A DNA stretch of 64,000 nucleotides, from NCBI GenBank assembly GCA_003169695.1, contig PNAS01000013.1, positions 81,797 through 145,796 on the forward strand. Reading direction: 5' to 3'. The notes beneath the pieces were generated by a model that was given only the letters and a program-made list of their open reading frames with translations, had not been told where the DNA came from and made no database searches. The DNA is from Spartobacteria bacterium (lineage in GTDB: Bacteria; Verrucomicrobiota; Verrucomicrobiia; Chthoniobacterales; UBA10450). The translations under genes and the position numbers were made by a program. This document shows, piece after piece, positions 45,599-60,276 of the stretch. How positions within the stretch are numbered: position 1 is the stretch's first letter; each line of letters starts with the position of its first letter.

Positions 45599-46956
45599 GG
45601 GAGGCTGCGGAGCGCGCGACGTCGCGTGATACGATCGCTGCGATCTCCACGCCGACCGGCGAAGGCGCCATCGCTTTGATCCGCATCTCGGGCGAGGACG
45701 CGATTGGAGTTGCCGATCGCATTTATCGTGGCAAAGAAAAGCCATCGGATTTTCCATCGCACACCCAGCGACTGGGCGAAATCTTCGAAGCGGATCGATT
45801 GATCGATCAGGTCATGCTCTCGGTCCATCGCACACCGGCCACTTACACCGGTGAAGATCTTGTGGAGGTCAGTTGCCACGGTGGAATTCTCGTGACGGCC
45901 CGCGTTCTCGAGGCCTGTCTGCGTGCGGGCGCACGCTCGGCGCGGCCGGGCGAATTTTCCGAGCGCGCCTTCCTGAATGGAAAGATGGATCTGACGCAGG
46001 CCGAGGCTGTCATGGATTTGATCCGCGCCCAAAGCGATCTCGCGCTTCGCTCCGCGAATGAGCAACTGGAAGGACGGCTTGGCTCCGAGATCAGAGCCAT
46101 CCGCGCGCAGCTGATCGAGACGCTCGCGCATGTGGAAGCCGCGATCGATTTTCCGGAGGAAGACATCGCGCCCGATGAAGGCGACAGACTGTGTGCGCGC
46201 CTTGATTCCGTCCGGCAGAAAATGCGTGATTTGCTCGCGACGGCCGAACAAGGACGGATTTTGCGCGAAGGGATCCGCGCGGTCATCTACGGCCCGACCA
46301 ACGCGGGGAAATCGAGTCTGTTAAATCGACTTCTTGGTTACGACCGCGCCATTGTCAGCGAAAGGCCGGGCACGACGCGCGACACGATCGAAGAAGTGAT
46401 AAACCTGCGCGGCATTCCGATTCGATTGCTGGACACGGCTGGTCTGCGCGATTCCCGGGATGAACTGGAGCGCGAGGGGACCGTGCGCACGGAAAGATCG
46501 CTCGCCACGGCTGATCTCCTTCTTCACGTCCTCGACCGTAATGCGCCGAAGCCCGCCGAGTTCAACAGGCCCTCGACAGATCAAATTGAGCTCGTGCTTC
46601 TCAACAAGAGCGATCTGTCGGAACATTCCGACTGGAAGCATCATGATGCGCTGCGGATTTCGTGCCTTAAAGAAAACGGTCTGCACGGCCTGGAAGAGGC
46701 CATTCTTGCGCGCATTTCGGAGAACCATTTGCGACCTGAAAGCGCTCTCGCGATCAACGCGCGCCATCGCGATTGTCTCAGGCGCGCTCTCGATTCCTGT
46801 GAGTTGGCGCACGCCACGATGAAGGCTGGCCTCGCACCGGAATATATGGCGGTAGATCTTCGCGCGGCGTTGCGCGCGGTCGGCGAGATTACCGGCGCGG
46901 AGAACGTGGAGGAAATCCTCGACTCCCTCTTCGCGCAATTCTGCATCGGCAAATGA
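45595..46956 (+). CDS. mnmE: tRNA uridine-5-carboxymethylaminomethyl modification GTPase MnmE
   Basis: GTPase that with MnmG modifies wobble U34. A 453-residue product starts with GTG 45595 inside the hisC stop (ATG 45553 is an alternative). The N-terminal domain has DTIAAISTPTGEGAIALIRI. The G domain has G1 GPTNAGKSSLLNRLLG (about residue 225), G3 DTAGLRDS and G4 LLNKSDLS. The C-terminal CIGK (catalytic Cys motif) ends the protein. Its stop overlaps the pyrD start by ATGA. Confidence 0.95.
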   Translation: MREAAERATSRDTIAAISTPTGEGAIALIRISGEDAIGVADRIYRGKEKPSDFPSHTQRLGEIFEADRLIDQVMLSVHRTPATYTGEDLVEVSCHGGILVTARVLEACLRAGARSARPGEFSERAFLNGKMDLTQAEAVMDLIRAQSDLALRSANEQLEGRLGSEIRAIRAQLIETLAHVEAAIDFPEEDIAPDEGDRLCARLDSVRQKMRDLLATAEQGRILREGIRAVIYGPTNAGKSSLLNRLLGYDRAIVSERPGTTRDTIEEVINLRGIPIRLLDTAGLRDSRDELEREGTVRTERSLATADLLLHVLDRNAPKPAEFNRPSTDQIELVLLNKSDLSEHSDWKHHDALRISCLKENGLHGLEEAILARISENHLRPESALAINARHRDCLRRALDSCELAHATMKAGLAPEYMAVDLRAALRAVGEITGAENVEEILDSLFAQFCIGK

Positions 46957-47975
46957 ATGCCGCCGACGCCTACGAACGTTTCGTTAGGCCGACTCTTTTC
47001 TCTCTCCCTCCCGAAACGGCTCATTCTCTGGCGCTCGGCTGTCTCCGTGCCGCTTCACGGCTGCCCTTCGCGCTCCGCGCGCTCAATTCCTTTCAGTCGC
47101 CCGCGAAACCGAGAAAGGTTTTCGGCATCACTTTTCCCAATGTAATCGGACTGGCCGCGGGATTCGACAAGAATGGCGTCGCGCTTCCGGCGTGGGCGGC
47201 GCTCGGCTTCGGTTTCATCGAGATCGGGACCGTGACGGCAAAAGCGCAGCCCGGAAATCCGAAGCCACGGATTTTCCGGTATCCTGAGCAAGGGGCGCTG
47301 GTCAATCGCCTGGGTTTCAACAATGACGGAGCGGACGCTATCGCGGCCAGGCTGCGCAGGTTGCGCGGACGTGGCCGCTGGCCTGGAATACCAGTCGGCA
47401 TCAACCTCGGAAAATCAAAGATCACTCCTATCGAAGAGGCGGCGGATGATTATCTCTACTCGTTCCGGCTGCTCCGTGAGTTCGCCGATTACGTCGTGCT
47501 CAACGTCAGTTCACCGAACACGCCGGGTCTTCGCACATTGCAAGAGCACGATGCACTCCAGCAATTGCTGCGCGTAATTCGCAAAGAAAACCAAATCGCT
47601 CGGAAGCGTATTCTGTTGAAAATCGCGCCGGATCTTTCGCTCCCCGATCTCGAGCAAGTCATCACAACGTGCGAAGAAAACGACATCGCCGGAATAATCG
47701 CGACGAATACGACACTCGATCACGCGGCGATCCCGCCGGCAGTCGATCAAGCCGGGGGGCTGAGCGGCCTGCCGTTGCGAGAAAAATCGACGGAACTTGT
47801 GCGCGCGATTACCGCTCGTTCGCGATTGCCGGTCATCGCTTCCGGTGGAATTTTTGACGCGGAGGGCGCGAGGGAAAAATTGGAGGCTGGTGCGCAGCTC
47901 TTGCAGCTTTATACGGGCTACGTATATCGCGGTCCGGCTCTCCTCGCGGAAATCGCCCGCACCTTGCCAGAGTAG
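46953..47975 (+). CDS. pyrD: Dihydroorotate dehydrogenase (quinone, class 2)
   Basis: FMN enzyme of 340 residues that oxidises dihydroorotate in pyrimidine synthesis and passes electrons to quinone. The N-terminal membrane-associating helix RPTLFSLPPETAHSLALGCL marks class 2. Other landmarks are VIGLAAGFDKNGVALPAW, IEIGTVTAKAQPGNPKPRIF, the active-site Ser in LNVSSPNTPGLRTLQ, IIATNTTLDH and the FMN-phosphate site VIASGGIFDAEGAREKLEAG. Coupled to mnmE by ATGA. The gene order hisC-mnmE-pyrD probably reflects one transcript. Confidence 0.95.
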   Translation: MNAADAYERFVRPTLFSLPPETAHSLALGCLRAASRLPFALRALNSFQSPAKPRKVFGITFPNVIGLAAGFDKNGVALPAWAALGFGFIEIGTVTAKAQPGNPKPRIFRYPEQGALVNRLGFNNDGADAIAARLRRLRGRGRWPGIPVGINLGKSKITPIEEAADDYLYSFRLLREFADYVVLNVSSPNTPGLRTLQEHDALQQLLRVIRKENQIARKRILLKIAPDLSLPDLEQVITTCEENDIAGIIATNTTLDHAAIPPAVDQAGGLSGLPLREKSTELVRAITARSRLPVIASGGIFDAEGAREKLEAGAQLLQLYTGYVYRGPALLAEIARTLPE

Positions 47976-54684: not shown

Positions 54685-54817
54685 TTCATCTCCTGATTGG
54701 ATCGGGCTCGTGCGCCCGACATGAATTCTGAACGGACTAACTGCGTTCGGCGCACATTGGTTCAGCAGCCGGCGGAACGCGCGCGCGCGACTGTCCGCAA
54801 AAGCGGAACACCAATGG

Positions 54818-55141
54818 TCAGGAGATCGCCGGCGGAGCGTGCTCGAGAAGAGAGAATTCGAGACGCGGACCGACTAGTTGAAAGTGACGATGGACCGGAG
54901 TGGACAGCGGCTTGGGTGGCTGCGGAGCAATCGCGATTGCGGCACACGGCGCGTGTTGGCAACTACCCGACGTCAGCAGCGTTACCGCACATTCGTGGGT
55001 TGAGCCGGTCGGCTGGTGAAGGCGCTCGTGGAGTTGCGGCGCGGCGGCGAGCACCAGCGCGAAAAGAAGCGCCCCGATAAATCCGGCGGCCACGATCGCG
55101 CGCAGCACGATCAAGTTGCCGTCGCTGAGACGCAGCTTCAT
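54818..55141 (-). CDS. Small Cys/His membrane protein at head of metal operon
   Basis: A 107-residue protein with one membrane helix (VAAGFIGALLFALVLAAA) followed by HERLHQPTGSTHECAVTLL and SGSCQHAPC, a His/Cys-rich stretch, then a Pro-rich tail. Proteins of this kind are found next to metal-uptake or metal-sensing genes; a direct role is not shown. ATG 55141. It is the first gene of the operon and lies 87 bp from the left edge of the transposon, whose insertion separates it from its original upstream DNA. Confidence 0.6.
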   Translation of the reverse strand: MKLRLSDGNLIVLRAIVAAGFIGALLFALVLAAAPQLHERLHQPTGSTHECAVTLLTSGSCQHAPCAAIAIAPQPPKPLSTPVHRHFQLVGPRLEFSLLEHAPPAIS

Positions 55142-55220
55142 TGCGCGCGAGTCTGCCTCCGGTGAGTGAACATCGCAAGCACGATCTGTAGCCCGTTCGC
55201 GGCGGAAGCGATTGGTGGCG

Positions 55221-55228
55221 GCAGGGTA
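55221..55228. repeat. Target-site duplication, left copy
   Basis: gcagggta, repeated exactly at 58533-58540 on the other side of the transposon. The length of 8 bp is typical of IS1-family insertions. Confidence 0.9.
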
Positions 55229-55248
55229 GGTAGTGTCCTAATTTGAAA
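55229..55248 (+). repeat. Transposon left terminal inverted repeat
   Basis: GGTAGTGTCCTAATTTGAAA; perfect inverted match to 58513-58532. Confidence 0.95.
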
Positions 55249-55259
55249 TCAGGGGCCGG

Positions 55260-55748
55260 TCAGCGCTGGGTCTTCAAAAGGCGTTTATTCACCTTCTCGG
55301 ATCGCTCGACTAAATTGAATTTGTTCTCGTGCGCCGGAATCGAGAATGAAAATTCTGTGACACCATGGTTGCATATTGTGAAATCCCCCAAGGAGATGAC
55401 ATCCATGCCAATAAGAATGTCACATCCCACGTCAACAGCAGCCACCTCGACCTGTGCTACGGTCACTGAGCTCGGAAGGAGTAAATCAACAAAGTAGGTG
55501 GAAGCCACGCCGGAGCTGTTAACCCCTTTGACCGGGCGTTTCCCAGACGCGGGCAACTTCAGCGCCTTAACGACGGCATGGCTGATGCAACTGTGAGTCG
55601 CACCCGTGTCCCAGATCGCGTTGAATTGCTGCCCCGCGCTGTCGCCATAAAGCTGTTTAGCCGGACGAATTTGTACCGGCGTTATCAGTGTCGGAACCAG
55701 CCCCGAATATTTAACGTTAAACGCCCTGTGAAGCTGCTGTCCCATCAC
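55260..55748 (-). CDS. Retropepsin-like aspartic protease (transposon passenger)
   Basis: A 162-residue clan AA aspartic protease. The active-site motif is AIWDTGATHSCIS (DTG at about residue 47), and the second hydrophobic glycine strand reads DILIGMDVISLGDFTICNHG (about 110-129), as in retropepsins, which work as dimers. No signal peptide. Its ATG overlaps the stop of the DUF5678 gene by 4 nt, so the two are made together. The pairing of a DUF5678 protein with an aspartic protease is known from several bacterial phyla; the substrate is unknown and could be the partner itself (inference). It ends only 11 bp from the left terminal repeat. Confidence 0.87.
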   Translation of the reverse strand: MMGQQLHRAFNVKYSGLVPTLITPVQIRPAKQLYGDSAGQQFNAIWDTGATHSCISHAVVKALKLPASGKRPVKGVNSSGVASTYFVDLLLPSSVTVAQVEVAAVDVGCDILIGMDVISLGDFTICNHGVTEFSFSIPAHENKFNLVERSEKVNKRLLKTQR

Positions 55749-56005
55749 CGGACGAAAACACGCGAATGAAACATAGCGATCTGCGCGTCTTCATCCGGGG
55801 CAACGAACTGAACCAAGAAGGTTCCCGGCTTATTCCCCTGCGCAATCGCCTCTGCAATTGCTTTCGCCTTGTCGTTATAGTCCCCGATCACTTCGGACCC
55901 CTTAATGACGATGCAGCGCCCAAAATACCGGAGGCGCAGCTCGGCTTCGTGCGATTTGTAATATTCGTATTCTTTGTCGAGGGATGTTGCCATTACCGTG
56001 TCCAT
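55745..56005 (-). CDS. DUF5678-family small protein (transposon passenger)
   Basis: An 86-residue soluble protein with the DUF5678 pattern: EYEYYKSHEAELRLRYFGRC, IVIKGSEVIGDYNDKAKAI and GNKPGTFLVQFV. ATG 56005 or 55993 may start it. It overlaps the downstream protease gene by ATGA. Role unknown; in other genomes members often sit before a retropepsin-like gene, as here. Confidence 0.85.
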   Translation of the reverse strand: MDTVMATSLDKEYEYYKSHEAELRLRYFGRCIVIKGSEVIGDYNDKAKAIAEAIAQGNKPGTFLVQFVAPDEDAQIAMFHSRVFVR

Positions 56006-56080
56006 CTGGAGAGAAACGTCGCTCGTATCTTAGCAGGCTGCAACCAAATCGAAGCAGCGACCGTGCCCGGCTGTCAATTA

Positions 56081-56377
56081 CTAAGTTTTGAACTCTCTGG
56101 TCTTCGCCGCAATCGCCACTTTGACAGCGGTTTGCGGGGAATCGACTGGTGGGATTTCCAGCACTGCCGTTGATTTCGTTTCGTTCCCGTCTTGGTAACT
56201 CCATGCGTAGCAGCGTTTCGCCTTGGCGTGCCCAATAAGGTCAAAGACTGCCACCGTGCCCTGCCATGCCGTCTCTCCGCGAAAGACTTCATGGACTGGC
56301 ACGGACTCAACGTGACGCGATTCGCAGCCGTGCATGGCCCGAATCGCCTTTTGAAGTTCTGCGATCTTGTCGGCCAT
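56081..56377 (-). CDS. Unknown protein coupled to the transposase
   Basis: A 98-residue soluble protein (MADKIAELQKAIRAMHGCES, then GTVAVFDLIGHAKAKRCYAW and AVKVAIAAKTREF). Its ATG shares one base with the transposase stop (TAATG on the minus strand), so translation is coupled and it may assist or regulate transposition (inference). The central part looks like a short beta-sheet domain with a Trp/Tyr pair. No family recognised. Confidence 0.75.
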   Translation of the reverse strand: MADKIAELQKAIRAMHGCESRHVESVPVHEVFRGETAWQGTVAVFDLIGHAKAKRCYAWSYQDGNETKSTAVLEIPPVDSPQTAVKVAIAAKTREFKT

Positions 56378-57192
56378 TAGAGAAGGTCTGCGATTGTCCA
56401 GTGACTCGATTCGATGCCTGCGGCCATTGCTGGCGTGCAACGGATTGTCCCATGAGTTTTCACGAAGTTGTAATACGCCAGATGCAGGGCGATTGCCGCT
56501 TTGAAATTCGGAAGCTTTTTTGAGAACGCCAGCGTCAAACGAGCGAGACGTTTGCAGTGCGTGCGGACAGTCAGATTCGCCCGTTCAATGTATGACGTGC
56601 AAACCTTGTCAGGATTCGGGTCGCCCACGATTGCTGTCTTATACACTGCCGTAAGGTGCGCTGGGCTGTATTTGCGCTGATCTTCGACGGCAGGGGCCGA
56701 ATACTCTTTCACTATCTGCGCGTAATCAATTTCAGCGCCGAACGCCATTTCCACCGCGTCAGGATATGCGGAAAGCGCATCTGTCGAAAGCTGGATGCGA
56801 CTGTCTAACCGGCTCGCCAAATCTTCCATGAAGGTAACGGCATGGTAGCGGTCGCGTTTCCCTACGAGGAAAGACGGCATCAATTTCGTTTCAGGGTCAA
56901 TCGCAAGGAATGTCCAAACGTCGCCCATTCCTGAGCGTCGATCTTCTTTCGATGCGTGGCGCTGTTTCTTCCCGATGAATCCCCAAATCTCATCAACTTC
57001 GATGTGCGAGCATTTCAGGCCGCGCATTTTCTGATCGAGAATCTGACAGCAGTGTTCGCCCACGCTAACGCCAAGGCGCATGATCGTGTCACGATGAATG
57101 CCGCTGAGACGCTCGATTGAACGAATCGAATTTCCTTCTGCGAGAGCACCGATCACAATCGCTTGTTTTTCTTTGCTAAGAACGTTTGCCAT
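56377..57192 (-). CDS. IS1-family DDE transposase
   Basis: A 271-residue single-frame transposase. The N-terminal helix-turn-helix shows VIGALAEGNSIRSIERLSGI and HRDTIMRLGVSVGEHCC. The catalytic domain has the first Asp in CSHIEVDEIWGFIGKKQRH (about residue 66), the second in IQLSTDALSAYPDAVEMAF (about residue 138) and the Glu in VCTSYIERANLTVRTHCKR (about residue 203). Unlike classical IS1, no programmed frameshift is needed. The C-terminal YNFVKTHGTIRCTPAMAAGI is shared by many IS1 single-ORF transposases. It appears intact and the element ends match, so it may be active. Confidence 0.93.
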   Translation of the reverse strand: MANVLSKEKQAIVIGALAEGNSIRSIERLSGIHRDTIMRLGVSVGEHCCQILDQKMRGLKCSHIEVDEIWGFIGKKQRHASKEDRRSGMGDVWTFLAIDPETKLMPSFLVGKRDRYHAVTFMEDLASRLDSRIQLSTDALSAYPDAVEMAFGAEIDYAQIVKEYSAPAVEDQRKYSPAHLTAVYKTAIVGDPNPDKVCTSYIERANLTVRTHCKRLARLTLAFSKKLPNFKAAIALHLAYYNFVKTHGTIRCTPAMAAGIESSHWTIADLL

Positions 57193-57214
57193 ATAATATT
57201 TTGTCTTGAATAAA

Positions 57215-57268
57215 TGTATGTCACGAAATAGAGTAGGTCAATAACTATTTTGTGTATGTCGAGAAATA
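57215..57268. promoter_or_regulatory. Candidate operator: two 16-bp direct repeats between divergent genes
   Basis: tgtatgtcacgaaata (57215-57230) and tgtatgtcgagaaata (57253-57268) match at 14 of 16 positions, 38 bp apart. They lie between the transposase start (57192) and the ribbon-helix-helix gene, the second spanning its ATG. This suits binding by the ribbon-helix-helix protein to control both transcripts; binding is not shown. Confidence 0.5.
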
Positions 57269-57444
57269 AATCGAGAGGCCGGGGGCGACCAAAGCTGCCA
57301 GAGGGTGAGGCTCGAAATGCCGTGTTTCCCCTGCGAATGTCAGAGGTGGAACACAGGATTTTGACGAAAGCGGCGGCTAAAGCCGGTTTGCCGCTCTCAG
57401 AATGGGCTAGAAATCACTTGCTTTCTAAAGCCAAAGCCGGATAA
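57256..57444 (+). CDS. Ribbon-helix-helix DNA-binding protein
   Basis: A 62-residue protein with a basic N terminus (MSRNKSRGRGRPKLPEGEAR) and an Arc/CopG-type fold: the strand AVFPLRMSEVEHRIL then helices TKAAAKAGLPLSEWARNHLL. Such proteins act as dimeric repressors or as plasmid mobilisation accessory factors. It is divergent from the transposase with 64 bp between them. ATG 57256 is preferred over TTG 57250. Confidence 0.8.
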   Translation: MSRNKSRGRGRPKLPEGEARNAVFPLRMSEVEHRILTKAAAKAGLPLSEWARNHLLSKAKAG

Positions 57445-57503
57445 TTCTCTTGTTATTAAGTGGCCGGTGCGTCGCCTGAAAAGGCATTGCCCCGGCTGCC
57501 CTT

Positions 57504-57562
57504 CCGAGCCGCTTGGTAGTCTGCTACGACTTTCTAAACCAAGCGGCTCGGTGCTTTTTATG
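57504..57562 (+). terminator. Strong hairpin, probable rho-independent terminator
   Basis: A perfect 13-bp stem, ccgagccgcttgg (57504-57516) with ccaagcggctcgg (57539-57551), and a 22-nt loop, followed by tgcttttta. It lies about 60 bp after the ribbon-helix-helix gene. A structured RNA or transposon-specific element is an alternative, because the loop is long. Confidence 0.7.
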
Positions 57563-57773
57563 TCGGCGCTTTCTTATGGCCGGGCAGGCCACGTCGCGCT
57601 AACTGTTATCATCTAGTTGAGCGAGGTTTACGCTTCCTGTCGCATAATTGCAAGCAGTTTTCGCAAAAAAGAGAATATCGCTACGCCTCGTGTTTATCAC
57701 TTTTGATAAACAGTGTTTCGCGCGCTTTTAGCTTGCCTTCGATGAGGAAGACCCCGCATAAACGACATTCGGA
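57563..57773. other. Transposon internal non-coding stretch
   Basis: Together with the terminator it forms a gap of about 330 bp between the ribbon-helix-helix gene and the BamE-like gene. It is AT-richer than the host and has a partial palindrome near 57692 (cacttttgataaacagtg). It probably holds the promoter of the rightward genes. No gene seen. Confidence 0.5.
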
Positions 57774-58034
57774 ATGAACAAACTGTTGTGCGTGGTTATC
57801 ACGGCTTCGATGCTTACGGTGTGCTCCGTAATGGCGGAAGACGACCTCGGCCTATTGATCTTCAATCATCGAATCGCTATCGGAATGACCTTCGCGAACG
57901 TGCAAGCCGCGTGGGGTAAGCCGGAAAGGGTAGATAGATCTACCTACAGTGACGGCATAAAGGAACTCTGGTTTTTTAGCAACCGGTGCCTTGTTGTGTT
58001 TGAAAACGGCAGGGTCGTCAGTTTCCACGAGTAA
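57774..58034 (+). CDS. Exported BamE/SmpA-like small protein (transposon passenger)
   Basis: An 86-residue protein with signal peptide MNKLLCVVITASMLTVCSV (cleavage near MAEDD). The mature part follows the BamE-like fold: IAIGMTFANVQAAWGKPERV, then IKELWFFSNRCLVVFENGRV. BamE-like domains fold as small alpha-beta units and are found in many unrelated lipoproteins. No lipobox. Role in the transposon unknown. Confidence 0.75.
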   Translation: MNKLLCVVITASMLTVCSVMAEDDLGLLIFNHRIAIGMTFANVQAAWGKPERVDRSTYSDGIKELWFFSNRCLVVFENGRVVSFHE

Positions 58035-58091
58035 TTCGACTGACTTCGCACCGTTCGGGGCGCTATAACGCTCCCGGCTTAAACATCCCCC

Positions 58092-58487
58092 GTGGAAGTA
58101 GAAAATTACGATCTTTCGGATTGGGAATCCGATTTCTTCTTTCTCTCAAGATACGTATTCCGTTCAGAATCCGGTTACTTTCCGCCGGACTACGAGCAAG
58201 AGATAAAAGAGCACTTTGAAAAGGATCATCCCCAGAGTGCGGAGTTTCGGCTTCGGAGAACTTTGGCAGCGCTTCGGTTTCTGATTTCAAATTTAGACTC
58301 CTTTAAGGTTGGTGGTCTTGCTCAAGAACCACCCGACGAGGCCGTGCAAATAAGCGATTCGCTATGGTTTGCGCTCTGGATGATTTTCTGCGAGCCGGAT
58401 GAAGAGAACTTCGACCCAAATCCTGACCCGCAAAAGGTCGTAGAGATTGCGGAGGAAGCCGACGCGGACGGCCTGTTTTCAGCTTAA
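58092..58487 (+). CDS. Acidic unknown protein (transposon passenger)
   Basis: A 131-residue, strongly acidic protein (MEVENYDLSDWESDFFFLSR, then PDEENFDPNPDPQKVVEIAE). GTG start at 58092. No family recognised; the acidic character could suit a DNA mimic or inhibitor, but nothing proves it. It ends 25 bp before the right terminal repeat. Confidence 0.6.
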   Translation: MEVENYDLSDWESDFFFLSRYVFRSESGYFPPDYEQEIKEHFEKDHPQSAEFRLRRTLAALRFLISNLDSFKVGGLAQEPPDEAVQISDSLWFALWMIFCEPDEENFDPNPDPQKVVEIAEEADADGLFSA

Positions 58488-58512
58488 TTCGGGCTAGTTC
58501 GGGCTGATTCGG

Positions 58513-58532
58513 TTTCAAATTAGGACACTACC
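58513..58532 (-). repeat. Transposon right terminal inverted repeat
   Basis: TTTCAAATTAGGACACTACC on the + strand, the exact reverse complement of the left repeat. Confidence 0.95.
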
Positions 58533-58540
58533 GCAGGGTA
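58533..58540. repeat. Target-site duplication, right copy
   Basis: gcagggta, identical to 55221-55228. Confidence 0.9.
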
Positions 58541-58587
58541 CACTCGCTGGACAGGGCCGGAGTGTTAGTGTACGAAACGCTGCGCTT

Positions 58588-58908
58588 ATGATCGGACCAG
58601 CCAAGATCTATTTCATCGTTTTTGGTCTGCTCACCATCGTGGGTGGCGTGATCGGCTACGCTAAAGCTGGCAGCACCGCGTCCATCATTGCCGGCTCGAT
58701 TTGTGGAGTTCTTTTGCTGGTTGCGGCCTATTTGCTCCCGGAACATTTGGCATTGGGTCTTTGCGTCGCCGCCGTTATTTCGATCGCGCTGGCCGGCCGG
58801 TTCGCTCCGATTTTCGTTAAGACCGGTCAGGCCATGCCAGCCGGGTTGATGTCCGTGCTGAGTGTGATCGGCGTCATCATGGCGATCGTCGCCTGGATTA
58901 AGAAGTAA
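58588..58908 (+). CDS. TMEM14-family membrane protein
   Basis: A 106-residue protein with four hydrophobic helices and glycine-rich turns: IYFIVFGLLTIVGGVIGYAK, AGSTASIIAGSICGVLLLVA, ALGLCVAAVISIALAGRFA and GLMSVLSVIGVIMAIVAWIK. It matches the UPF0136/TMEM14 family, whose role in bacteria is unknown. It lies 50 bp downstream of the transposon, 9 bp before the GH75-like gene. Confidence 0.87.
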   Translation: MIGPAKIYFIVFGLLTIVGGVIGYAKAGSTASIIAGSICGVLLLVAAYLLPEHLALGLCVAAVISIALAGRFAPIFVKTGQAMPAGLMSVLSVIGVIMAIVAWIKK

Positions 58909-58917
58909 CCGGAACGC

Positions 58918-60276
58918 GTGGCCAGATTTCGTCTGAGGACGTTGCGCCGTTTCGCCTTCTTTTTGCTCCTGGCGGCGCTGACGGCGATTGTCCTGCGATG
59001 GATTTCCCTTGAGCGATGGCATAGAACGCAGGTCGCGCGCGATGTACCAGCCGAAATCGAAATTCCAGAAAAAACGCCGACGCCGTCGCAGCCAAGCAAG
59101 CCGCCGGTGATCACGGGTCGGCTCGACACCGCGCGGCTCTTCAGCGGGATCACGGTACACGCCACCGTCGACCCGATCCCGGGCGGCGCGGCTTCCGAAG
59201 AACGCGCTGATCCTCAAAGTTATGTCCTCGATCTAAAACTGCACGCGCGCGTTCCGGCGCCGAACAAGACAATCGAGGAGCTCGCCAAAGTCAGCCCTGA
59301 GCTGCCGAGGCTGCTTCCGGGATTGGCGGCGATGCTGACGCCGGATTCGGTCTCGCCTTTCTTCAAGGAGCTTTACGACACAAAGCTGAAACTTCTGCAG
59401 GAAAATCTTGTCCGGCTGGATCAACTTCTTTCGCGCCACAACTTCTACGACTGCCAGACGGTGCTCCAATTGCGCCATCCGGAGAGCCATCGCCGCGCGG
59501 TGCTGTTGCAATCCGACATGGATGTCGACGCGGATGGTTCGGACTCCGACCGGCTACCCGCCGGCTCGGGTGCGTCGCCAAATTTCAAACCGGTCACGAG
59601 TTTCAGGTGGCCGAAGAAAAGTCTGATCCCCAATGCTTATCTGCCGCCCCTGGAAGAAAAGCTGAAACGCTACGAAGGAGAGCTGTCGGTCAAAGGGACC
59701 GCCGCGGAGCGCAAACGCGAGTTGAAAGGCGCGATCTCGCAATTGCGGGACGAAATCGAGTCGCTCAAGAGATACAGCTTTCTGATCGGCGCGACTGATC
59801 CCTACATCGTTTTGCCCTCGGGTCTGGGCAAGGCGGACGGCGGTAAGGTGGGCGATTATGTCGTGGTCGTCTTCGGGGAGGTTATTTACCCGGCGATTGT
59901 CGGCGACATCGGTCCCTCGGACAAAGCGGGCGAAGCATCGTTGCGGGTAGCAAAGGAAATCAACGCCAATGCGACACCGAATAACCGCCCGGTAAGCGAT
60001 CTGAAAGTTACTTACTTAATTTTCCCCGGCACGGCCGACCCGCCATTCGGTCCGCCCGACCTCGAGAAGCTGCAAGCGCGTTGCGAGACGCTGGTGAAGG
60101 AAATCGGCGGAGCAAGCGTTCCGCTGCACCACTGGGAAAATATCATTCCGCCGCTTCCCAGCCCGACGCCGACTCCCACGCCAATGCCTACCCCCAGCGC
60201 GACACCCGCGTCGTCCGCAGCAACCCCTGCTGCGGCCTCGATGTTCGCGTTTCCGCTACCATCACCGACGCCGTGA
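58918..60276 (+). CDS. GH75 chitosanase-like protein with C-terminal Pro/Thr tail
   Basis: A 452-residue exported or anchored protein (GTG start; N-terminal helix FAFFLLLAALTAIVLRWI). The central part matches glycoside hydrolase family 75: LLQSDMDVDADGSDSDR (catalytic-Asp region, about residue 198) and VVVFGEVIYPAIVGDIGPSD with KAGEASLRVAKEIN (about 315-345). A helical insert (about 240-285) separates them. The tail is a low-complexity PTPTPMPTPS stretch. GH75 members cleave chitosan; many bacterial homologues of this size have unknown substrates. It may act on peptidoglycan-like or chitosan glycans. Confidence 0.8.
   Translation: MARFRLRTLRRFAFFLLLAALTAIVLRWISLERWHRTQVARDVPAEIEIPEKTPTPSQPSKPPVITGRLDTARLFSGITVHATVDPIPGGAASEERADPQSYVLDLKLHARVPAPNKTIEELAKVSPELPRLLPGLAAMLTPDSVSPFFKELYDTKLKLLQENLVRLDQLLSRHNFYDCQTVLQLRHPESHRRAVLLQSDMDVDADGSDSDRLPAGSGASPNFKPVTSFRWPKKSLIPNAYLPPLEEKLKRYEGELSVKGTAAERKRELKGAISQLRDEIESLKRYSFLIGATDPYIVLPSGLGKADGGKVGDYVVVVFGEVIYPAIVGDIGPSDKAGEASLRVAKEINANATPNNRPVSDLKVTYLIFPGTADPPFGPPDLEKLQARCETLVKEIGGASVPLHHWENIIPPLPSPTPTPTPMPTPSATPASSAATPAAASMFAFPLPSPTP

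Follow-up and report, generated by a model that had tools for sequence, protein, structure and literature searches.

How does a transposase related to that of IS1 come to share one pair of ends with six other genes? The question is raised by a 3304 bp segment at positions 55229-58532 of a 64,000 nucleotide (nt) stretch of DNA, here termed the window, from a Spartobacteria bacterium (GCA_003169695.1, contig PNAS01000013.1, positions 81,797-145,796). The segment displays the features of a complete IS1-related transposon with seven genes in all. Sequence comparison suggests an autonomous transposon that carries cargo and belongs to a clade related to IS1, with a probability of about 0.88. A preliminary description of this DNA had counted seven passenger genes; seven is the total with the transposase included, and three of these form a backbone and four are cargo.

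The left terminal inverted repeat is at positions 55229-55248 (plus strand) and the right one at positions 58513-58532 (minus strand). The two match at 20 of 20 bp and are the longest perfect inverted pair listed in a repeat scan of positions 54800-59000. The 8-bp target-site duplication gcagggta borders the element at positions 55221-55228 on the left and 58533-58540 on the right, and is identical in 8 of 8 bp. Both repeats and duplication are as the preliminary description had them. The ends are of the GGTAGTGTCCTAATTTGAAA type, which relatives also have. With up to two mismatches, the 19-bp end sequence has 14 matches in the organism's own genome, the two in the window included, and a reversed control pattern has none. 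Other elements with such ends show different 8-bp duplications. The end sequence is thus more than a chance occurrence, because of the 14 matches against none for the control and because the duplications of the relatives differ.

The transposase is encoded on the minus strand at positions 56377-57192. It has an open frame of 271 amino acids (aa), is matched by Pfam PF03400 at 36.4 bits (cut-off 24.1), and its residues D67, D138 and E203 are invariant in all 33 transposases aligned; the presence of one intact DDE transposase is confirmed. IS1 elements are defined by terminal inverted repeats of about 20 bp that start with GG and by a duplication of 8-9 bp; they are compact, about 0.8-1.2 kb, and lack passengers. 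The window element has repeats and a duplication of this kind, but it is 3304 bp long and carries four cargo genes. Ends, duplication and the PF03400 match together bear out its description as a complete IS1-type element with cargo.

Relatives were gathered by DNA, protein and end-pattern searches, and the loci were then screened for ends with a duplication. Three screens, in which the duplication lengths allowed were 7-10, 8, and 8-9 bp and exact, gave 33 distinct complete elements (24 + 3 + 6), i.e. the window element and 32 relatives, of 2.2-4.2 kb. All 33 have 8-bp duplications, which are exact in 31 and have one mismatch in E070 and E116; the duplication was part of the search criterion. 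The transposase of E080 is damaged. Three loci were dropped as duplicates: E071 and L193 were taken to repeat the insertion of E070, and E120 that of E073. Not counted as complete were L074, L078, L119, L123, L185 and L214, in which no end pair with a duplication was found, L129, whose ends are doubtful, L138 and L148, whose transposase is broken, L150 and L151, which gave no ends, the distant loci L218 and L219, likewise without ends, and L081, L187 and other fragments. The ends of the relatives are related to those of the window element and not identical, e.g. GGTAGTGGCTCAG..., GGTAGTGTATCAG... and GGCGTTGTCC....

The hosts belong to Verrucomicrobiota, with the exception of one metagenome-assembled genome of Acidobacteriota (Pyrinomonadaceae; L075) and three alphaproteobacterial plasmids. 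The plasmid elements, L215:3799-7168 in Mesorhizobium loti, L216:3561-7784 in Hoeflea sp. and L217:4264-6897 in Acidiphilium multivorum, are complete and have perfect 8-bp duplications. The RES/Xre genes of the Acidiphilium plasmid, considered as cargo, are located outside the element. A transposase match at E<=1e-20 is found in 32 of 384 genomes of a class-wide sample, and a peptide-pattern search of IMG/VR gave no relative of the window transposase. GC content is lower in the element than in its flanks in 34 of 35 listed elements, among which are some short and some duplicate ones. An alignment of 33 transposases, i.e. those of the complete elements without E080 and that of L214, falls into two clades, both supported, with 18 and 15 rows.

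Two genes accompany the transposase as backbone. ORF-B (98 aa) is at positions 56081-56377 of the minus strand, and its ATG overlaps the transposase stop codon (TAATG). Its profile is matched by 24 of the 25 elements that have ends of the window's type (a count that takes in short elements, the E070/E071 pair and the partial copies E139 and E146), and the exception is the 497-bp element E133. The coupling of this protein to the transposase, as earlier described, therefore holds, and its placement among the cargo does not, ORF-B being family backbone. The other gene, at positions 57250-57444 of the plus strand, is divergent from the transposase and encodes a small ribbon-helix-helix (RHH)-like protein, a probable regulator. 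Its NikA-like score is 26.9 bits with a cut-off of 27, which leaves the RHH assignment weak, but relatives conserve the gene (profile in 15 of 31 elements, with E070 and E071 entered separately) and it is likewise backbone, not cargo. In the second clade several elements lack ORF-B and have a small basic protein with a KGG motif, annotated as "histone H1" in Mesorhizobium.

The four cargo genes lie on both sides of the backbone. A retropepsin-like aspartyl protease of 162 aa is encoded at positions 55260-55748 of the minus strand (PF13650, 6.4e-10; PF13975, 3e-9), in agreement with the preliminary description. The end of an 86-aa protein gene at positions 55745-56005 of the same strand overlaps the retropepsin start by 4 nt. 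This protein has no Pfam family, and the label DUF5678 given to it earlier finds no such Pfam match at E<=1. A homologue in another genome (L212) adjoins a retropepsin fragment. Apart from this the window's cargo is rare: among 286 genomes, the retropepsin is matched in two and the 86-aa partner in three, the own genome included in each. On the plus strand, a second 86-aa protein with a signal-like N-terminus (judged by eye) is encoded at positions 57774-58034; no family is above cut-off, and its former label, BamE-like, is not confirmed. A 131-aa acidic protein at positions 58092-58487 of the same strand has no family match. A possible older right end inside the latter open reading frame (ORF), at positions 58281-58298, matches at 17 of 24 bases; 17 matches were reached by 0 of 150 shuffles and 16 by 21 of 150, and the candidate was rejected as an unproven relic or chance match.

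Beyond the backbone, the gene content varies from element to element, as seen by ORF clustering and profiles. The clearest case is the pair E130 and E131, present in one genome with different duplications. Their transposase regions are 94% identical over 854 bp and 75% identical over the last 250 bp; elsewhere only a 21-nt match is found at E<=1e-3. By sequence, the cargo is a helix-turn-helix/IrrE-type protein in the one and a ClpP-like protein in the other. Cargo is thus exchanged, since near-identical transposase regions are paired with unrelated cargo. In E114 (L114:7349-7787) a good inner end is skipped and the end that carries the duplication is 438 bp further out; judged from this arrangement, E114 has probably captured 438 bp of neighbouring DNA. 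Common cargo proteins are also found. One in E113 and E114 is 48% identical, compared with 77% for the transposases, and another (without a Pfam match in E122) recurs at 22%-30% identity in E070, E115, E122 and E149, whose transposases are 57%-73% identical in the four pairs compared.

A mechanical pick of ORFs of at least 80 aa gave 66 cargo ORFs from 27 elements; in the window it took an antisense ORF at positions 55766-56173 and missed the 86-aa gene, for which a separate Pfam scan was made. The 66 ORFs match 21 Pfam families, which include AIPR, GmrSD_N, Fic, PIN, PIN_10, DUF433, NYN and the window's retropepsin; SocA/Panacea (2), IrrE-type peptidase (2) and ClpP (3) have several members. 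In PADLOC they match RmrA and PD-Lambda-2_B (two members each) and SoFic (one), among the matches listed (25 of 28 families). AbiU was detected in L118 (2.2e-144) and RmrA in L128.

A model of movement can be proposed because of the anatomy of the element and the many independent insertions of its relatives. The DDE transposase would act on the GGTAGTGTCCTAATTTGAAA ends, move everything between them and create the 8-bp duplication, and the window element is likely to do so autonomously. ORF-B is most likely a transposition accessory, and the RHH protein most likely represses the promoter region that its gene shares with the transposase. The genes other than the backbone behave as exchangeable cargo in the comparisons above. 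Cargo would probably change when the transposase skips its own end and uses an outer one, a pattern present in one element (E114), or alternatively by recombination between elements. That part of the family cargo which resembles toxin-antitoxin (TA) or abortive-infection genes could favour retention of the element, and the coupled 86-aa/retropepsin pair of the window is a candidate for this type.

The insertion site was compared by aligning 7.8 kb around the element with eight genomes from the genus, among them its own (G000); genomes labelled with G belong to the class of the window or to a narrower group. The flanks adjoin without the element in four of seven congeners (G001, G003, G005 and G006), with 57-163 bases between the matched pieces. 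Among the matches listed, those in L156 (G001) and L160 (G005) show the joined window flanks aligned right through the site, and in L155/L162 (G003) the two flanks lie next to each other. The flanks are about 2.8 kb apart in G004 and about 7.5 kb apart in G002, with no element match between them, and are on opposite strands of one contig in G007. In G002 the DNA between the orthologous flanks (G002:C25:69318-76822) is other DNA and possibly another insertion. Sites lacking the element, a check suggested at the outset, were thus found, and the insertion spot is too diverged among the congeners for a base-exact empty site. The companion check, for copies with different duplications, gave relatives with other 8-bp duplications. 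Recent movement, which had also been proposed, is only suggested: the perfect ends and duplication speak for it, while the single copy and the lack of a near-identical copy in 58 genomes searched speak against it.

Several results weigh against the reading of the window element as an autonomous, cargo-exchanging transposon related to IS1. The own genome has one full copy of the element. The transposase scores 59.7 bits with the NCBIfam IS1 equivalog NF033558, under the 100-bit cut-off (and 25.1 bits with the IS1595 domain, cut-off 75), and by these scores would be distantly related to the core IS1 transposases and not one of them. No solved structure is clearly related to ORF-B (best E 0.48). 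Many cargo proteins of the family match no family, nor do three of the window's four, so that any defence or TA tendency is partial. Moreover, 100 flanking ORFs match 46 PADLOC families (one member each among the 25 matches listed), with strong matches to PD-T4-6, mad and kinase, together with 133 Pfam families that are mostly of housekeeping type among the 25 listed. The family cargo appears to show a partial defence/TA tendency, and no PADLOC enrichment is claimed for it because the flanking genes match PADLOC models too.

The single copy can be accommodated by two other explanations. The element could be an ordinary IS1-type element whose ends trapped neighbouring DNA once, without any habit of cargo exchange, and the failure of the window's listed cargo ORFs to cluster with ORFs of other elements would agree with this. 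The 32 distinct complete relatives of 2.2-4.2 kb, and the different cargo of the two near-identical transposases E130 and E131 in one genome, make this highly improbable. The element could instead be dead, any movement being due to a relative that acts in trans, for example that on G000:C25, which lies in the own genome and has identical 20-bp ends and a transposase 74.6% identical to that of the window. The open transposase frame, the full set of invariant residues and the perfect ends argue against this, and it appears improbable, less markedly so than a single trapping event.

A separate question concerns ORF-B, which, with or without the RHH gene, might be an addiction-type module or be selected on its own and not be a transposition helper. 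The own genome has ORF-B genes without a nearby transposase at L180, L181, L182, L183 and L136 (contigs C78, C12, C41, C36 and C54), and the six closest stand-alone pairs have dN/dS values of about 0.12-0.26, as would be expected of a gene selected for itself. Against this, most elements have ORF-B coupled to the transposase, and no TA family matches it, so that such a role is unlikely, although a little easier to credit than a dead element. Ends sought de novo around the stand-alone copies gave none that is convincing, one end being about 6 kb away in L136. Integron cassettes were rejected as a setting for these genes, the nearby repeats looking coding or of low complexity. An ORF-B match is missing in two of seven congeners (G003 and G006), and a plasmid search for ORF-B gave no match.

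Transposition by the element's own transposase remains the preferred reading of the locus. The relatives add a further component to the family, a tRNA-like gene. ARAGORN, run on 45 loci, calls tRNA genes at the same position inside E113, E114, E115, E124, E152 and E076, and also calls tRNAs outside elements. The anticodon is called as AUA in E115, as a four-base anticodon in E076 and as stop-reading UUA in the other four. The Rfam tRNA gathering score is reached by E115, E124, E152 and E076 and missed by E113 and E114. Folded alone, the six sequences have only a modest advantage over shuffled ones (z -0.8 to -1.8). E113, E114, E124 and E152 fold best as a cloverleaf, E115 and E076 as another structure. 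A covariance model built from the six matches E070 (63 bits, with small deletions), E117 (57) and L185 (53, cut by a contig end), and more weakly E073 (40.5), L119 (39.3), E122 (26.3) and E149 (22.7). Ordinary tRNAs outside elements score 24-46 bits, compared with 22.7-40.5 for the weaker element matches; the latter rest on position and acceptor structure, because the model alone fails to separate ordinary tRNAs. An acceptor/T-arm scan, in which G3:U70 was not required, added a 9/3 form in E077, with one control match in 620 shuffled segments.

Altogether 14 elements have a tRNA-like gene, 13 among the 25 ORF-B-bearing loci with a transposase and one (E152) among 15 in the other clade. The genes are at L113:4925-4997, L114:5099-5171, L115:6243-6315, L124:8784-8858, L152:7986-8059, L076:5643-5716, L070:1112-1182, L117:7845-7917, L073:5814-5880, L119:7189-7257, L122:9377-9444, L149:7547-7615 and L185:7887-7955, and in L077 about 366-278 nt upstream of the transposase. 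The 3' end is 251-297 nt upstream of the transposase start, on the same strand, in 12 of 13 measured; the distance is 121 nt in E073 and about 278 nt in E077. All 13 genes with both acceptor strands visible display G3:U70 and A73, the alanine identity. The anticodon reads UUA in eight (E113, E114, E076, E124, E152, E070, E117 and E073), CUA in L119 and L185, probably UCA in E149, AUA or ambiguous in E115, and GUA in E077, and is not clear in E122. An 8/4 form also fits E073 and E149 (by the scan) and E122 and L119 (by eye), and the 9/3 form fits E077, i.e. up to five in all.

In the window element no tRNA-like gene is detected by ARAGORN, the covariance model or the acceptor/T-arm scan; the own genome does encode one, in the element on G000:C25 (tRNA-like gene at positions 46924-46996). 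About where relatives have this gene, the window has a 14-bp perfect hairpin with a 20-nt loop followed by a T-run (positions 57504-57551, plus strand; repeat scan), read as the terminator of the RHH gene. It is absent from a terminator-scan listing, where loops of 3-8 only are permitted. The minus-strand fold of positions 57445-57570 has a z-score of -5.06; the region contains hairpins, of which one is this putative terminator. Rfam gave no match at gathering score in positions 54800-59000.

The tRNA-like gene may be a suppressor, a mimic or captured cargo, all of which are possible. A suppressor matched to the stop codon of the transposase, ORF-B or RHH gene was rejected, as the stop codons do not follow the anticodon. 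It is conceivable, at somewhat less than even odds, that the clade specialises in carrying host-retention (TA/abortive-infection) genes and has a backbone of four parts, namely the transposase, ORF-B, an RHH repressor and an alanine-type tRNA of its own (stop- or UAN-reading, about 270 nt upstream of the transposase). The clade would then be a natural home of allo-tRNAs, the tRNA a nonsense suppressor or mimic that controls the element or its cargo, and the window element would have lost it. The odds are lowered because the model mixes weak matches with ordinary tRNAs, and because ordinary-looking tRNAs also occur just inside the ends of L148, L190 and L134.

These last genes (L148:2751-2837, L190:5302-5373 and L134:3549-3636) are 18-26 nt inside a terminal repeat and point towards it; they are possibly captured host tRNAs. 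Together with L147, the matches in L190 and L134 (covariance model) and a tRNA-Phe (gaa) in L148 (ARAGORN) look like other or ordinary tRNAs and were not counted.

Minute elements of 33-40 bp, each made up of two ends that abut and are flanked by perfect 8-bp duplications, were also observed at L141:3532-3564, G006:C42:71966-72003 (L049/L065/L220) and L192:3997-4036. The exact pattern is found in 2 of 83 family genomes. They are either hairpin-promoted deletions of whole elements or assembly collapses.

IS1-type transposition, usually tied to tiny elements, appears here to run a modular cargo system across Verrucomicrobiota and alphaproteobacterial plasmids, with defence-like and TA-like genes among the cargo. 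The stop-anticodon tRNA-like genes at a near-constant position give non-canonical tRNAs a concrete genomic context in which their role becomes testable. No description of an IS1-type clade with such a backbone, cargo or tRNA was found in the literature searched, which leaves out most subscription papers, and the preliminary statement that the cargo set is undescribed holds within that literature.

In common with the IS1 family, the window element has a PF03400 transposase, GG-starting 20-bp inverted repeats and an 8-bp duplication. It differs in its 3.3 kb length, the ORF-B and RHH backbone genes, the variable cargo and a score below the equivalog cut-off. Allo-tRNAs, as the available text of PMC7609411 has it, are of unexplained role, and one hypothesis assigns some of them to transposable elements or TA systems; AlaRS identity elements are reported in some (PMC7590224, available text). 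Up to five relatives resemble them in fitting 8/4 or 9/3 forms, whereas the majority of the family's tRNA-like genes have a 7/5 form, carry G3:U70 and in most cases have a UUA or CUA anticodon; the window element lacks such a gene. Tn3-family transposons with TA pairs, as described in the available part of PMC7157771, similarly carry diverse TA genes; they use another transposition system, and the pair in the window does not belong to the recognised TA pairs. The closest parallel lies with insertion sequences (ISs) that have passenger genes, known as "transporter ISs" (Siguier et al. 2009, as cited in the available part of PMC3129680). Like these, the window element has genes unrelated to transposition inside its own two ends and duplication; the window's clade differs from them, so far as that source describes them, in combining conserved accessory genes with fast-changing cargo.

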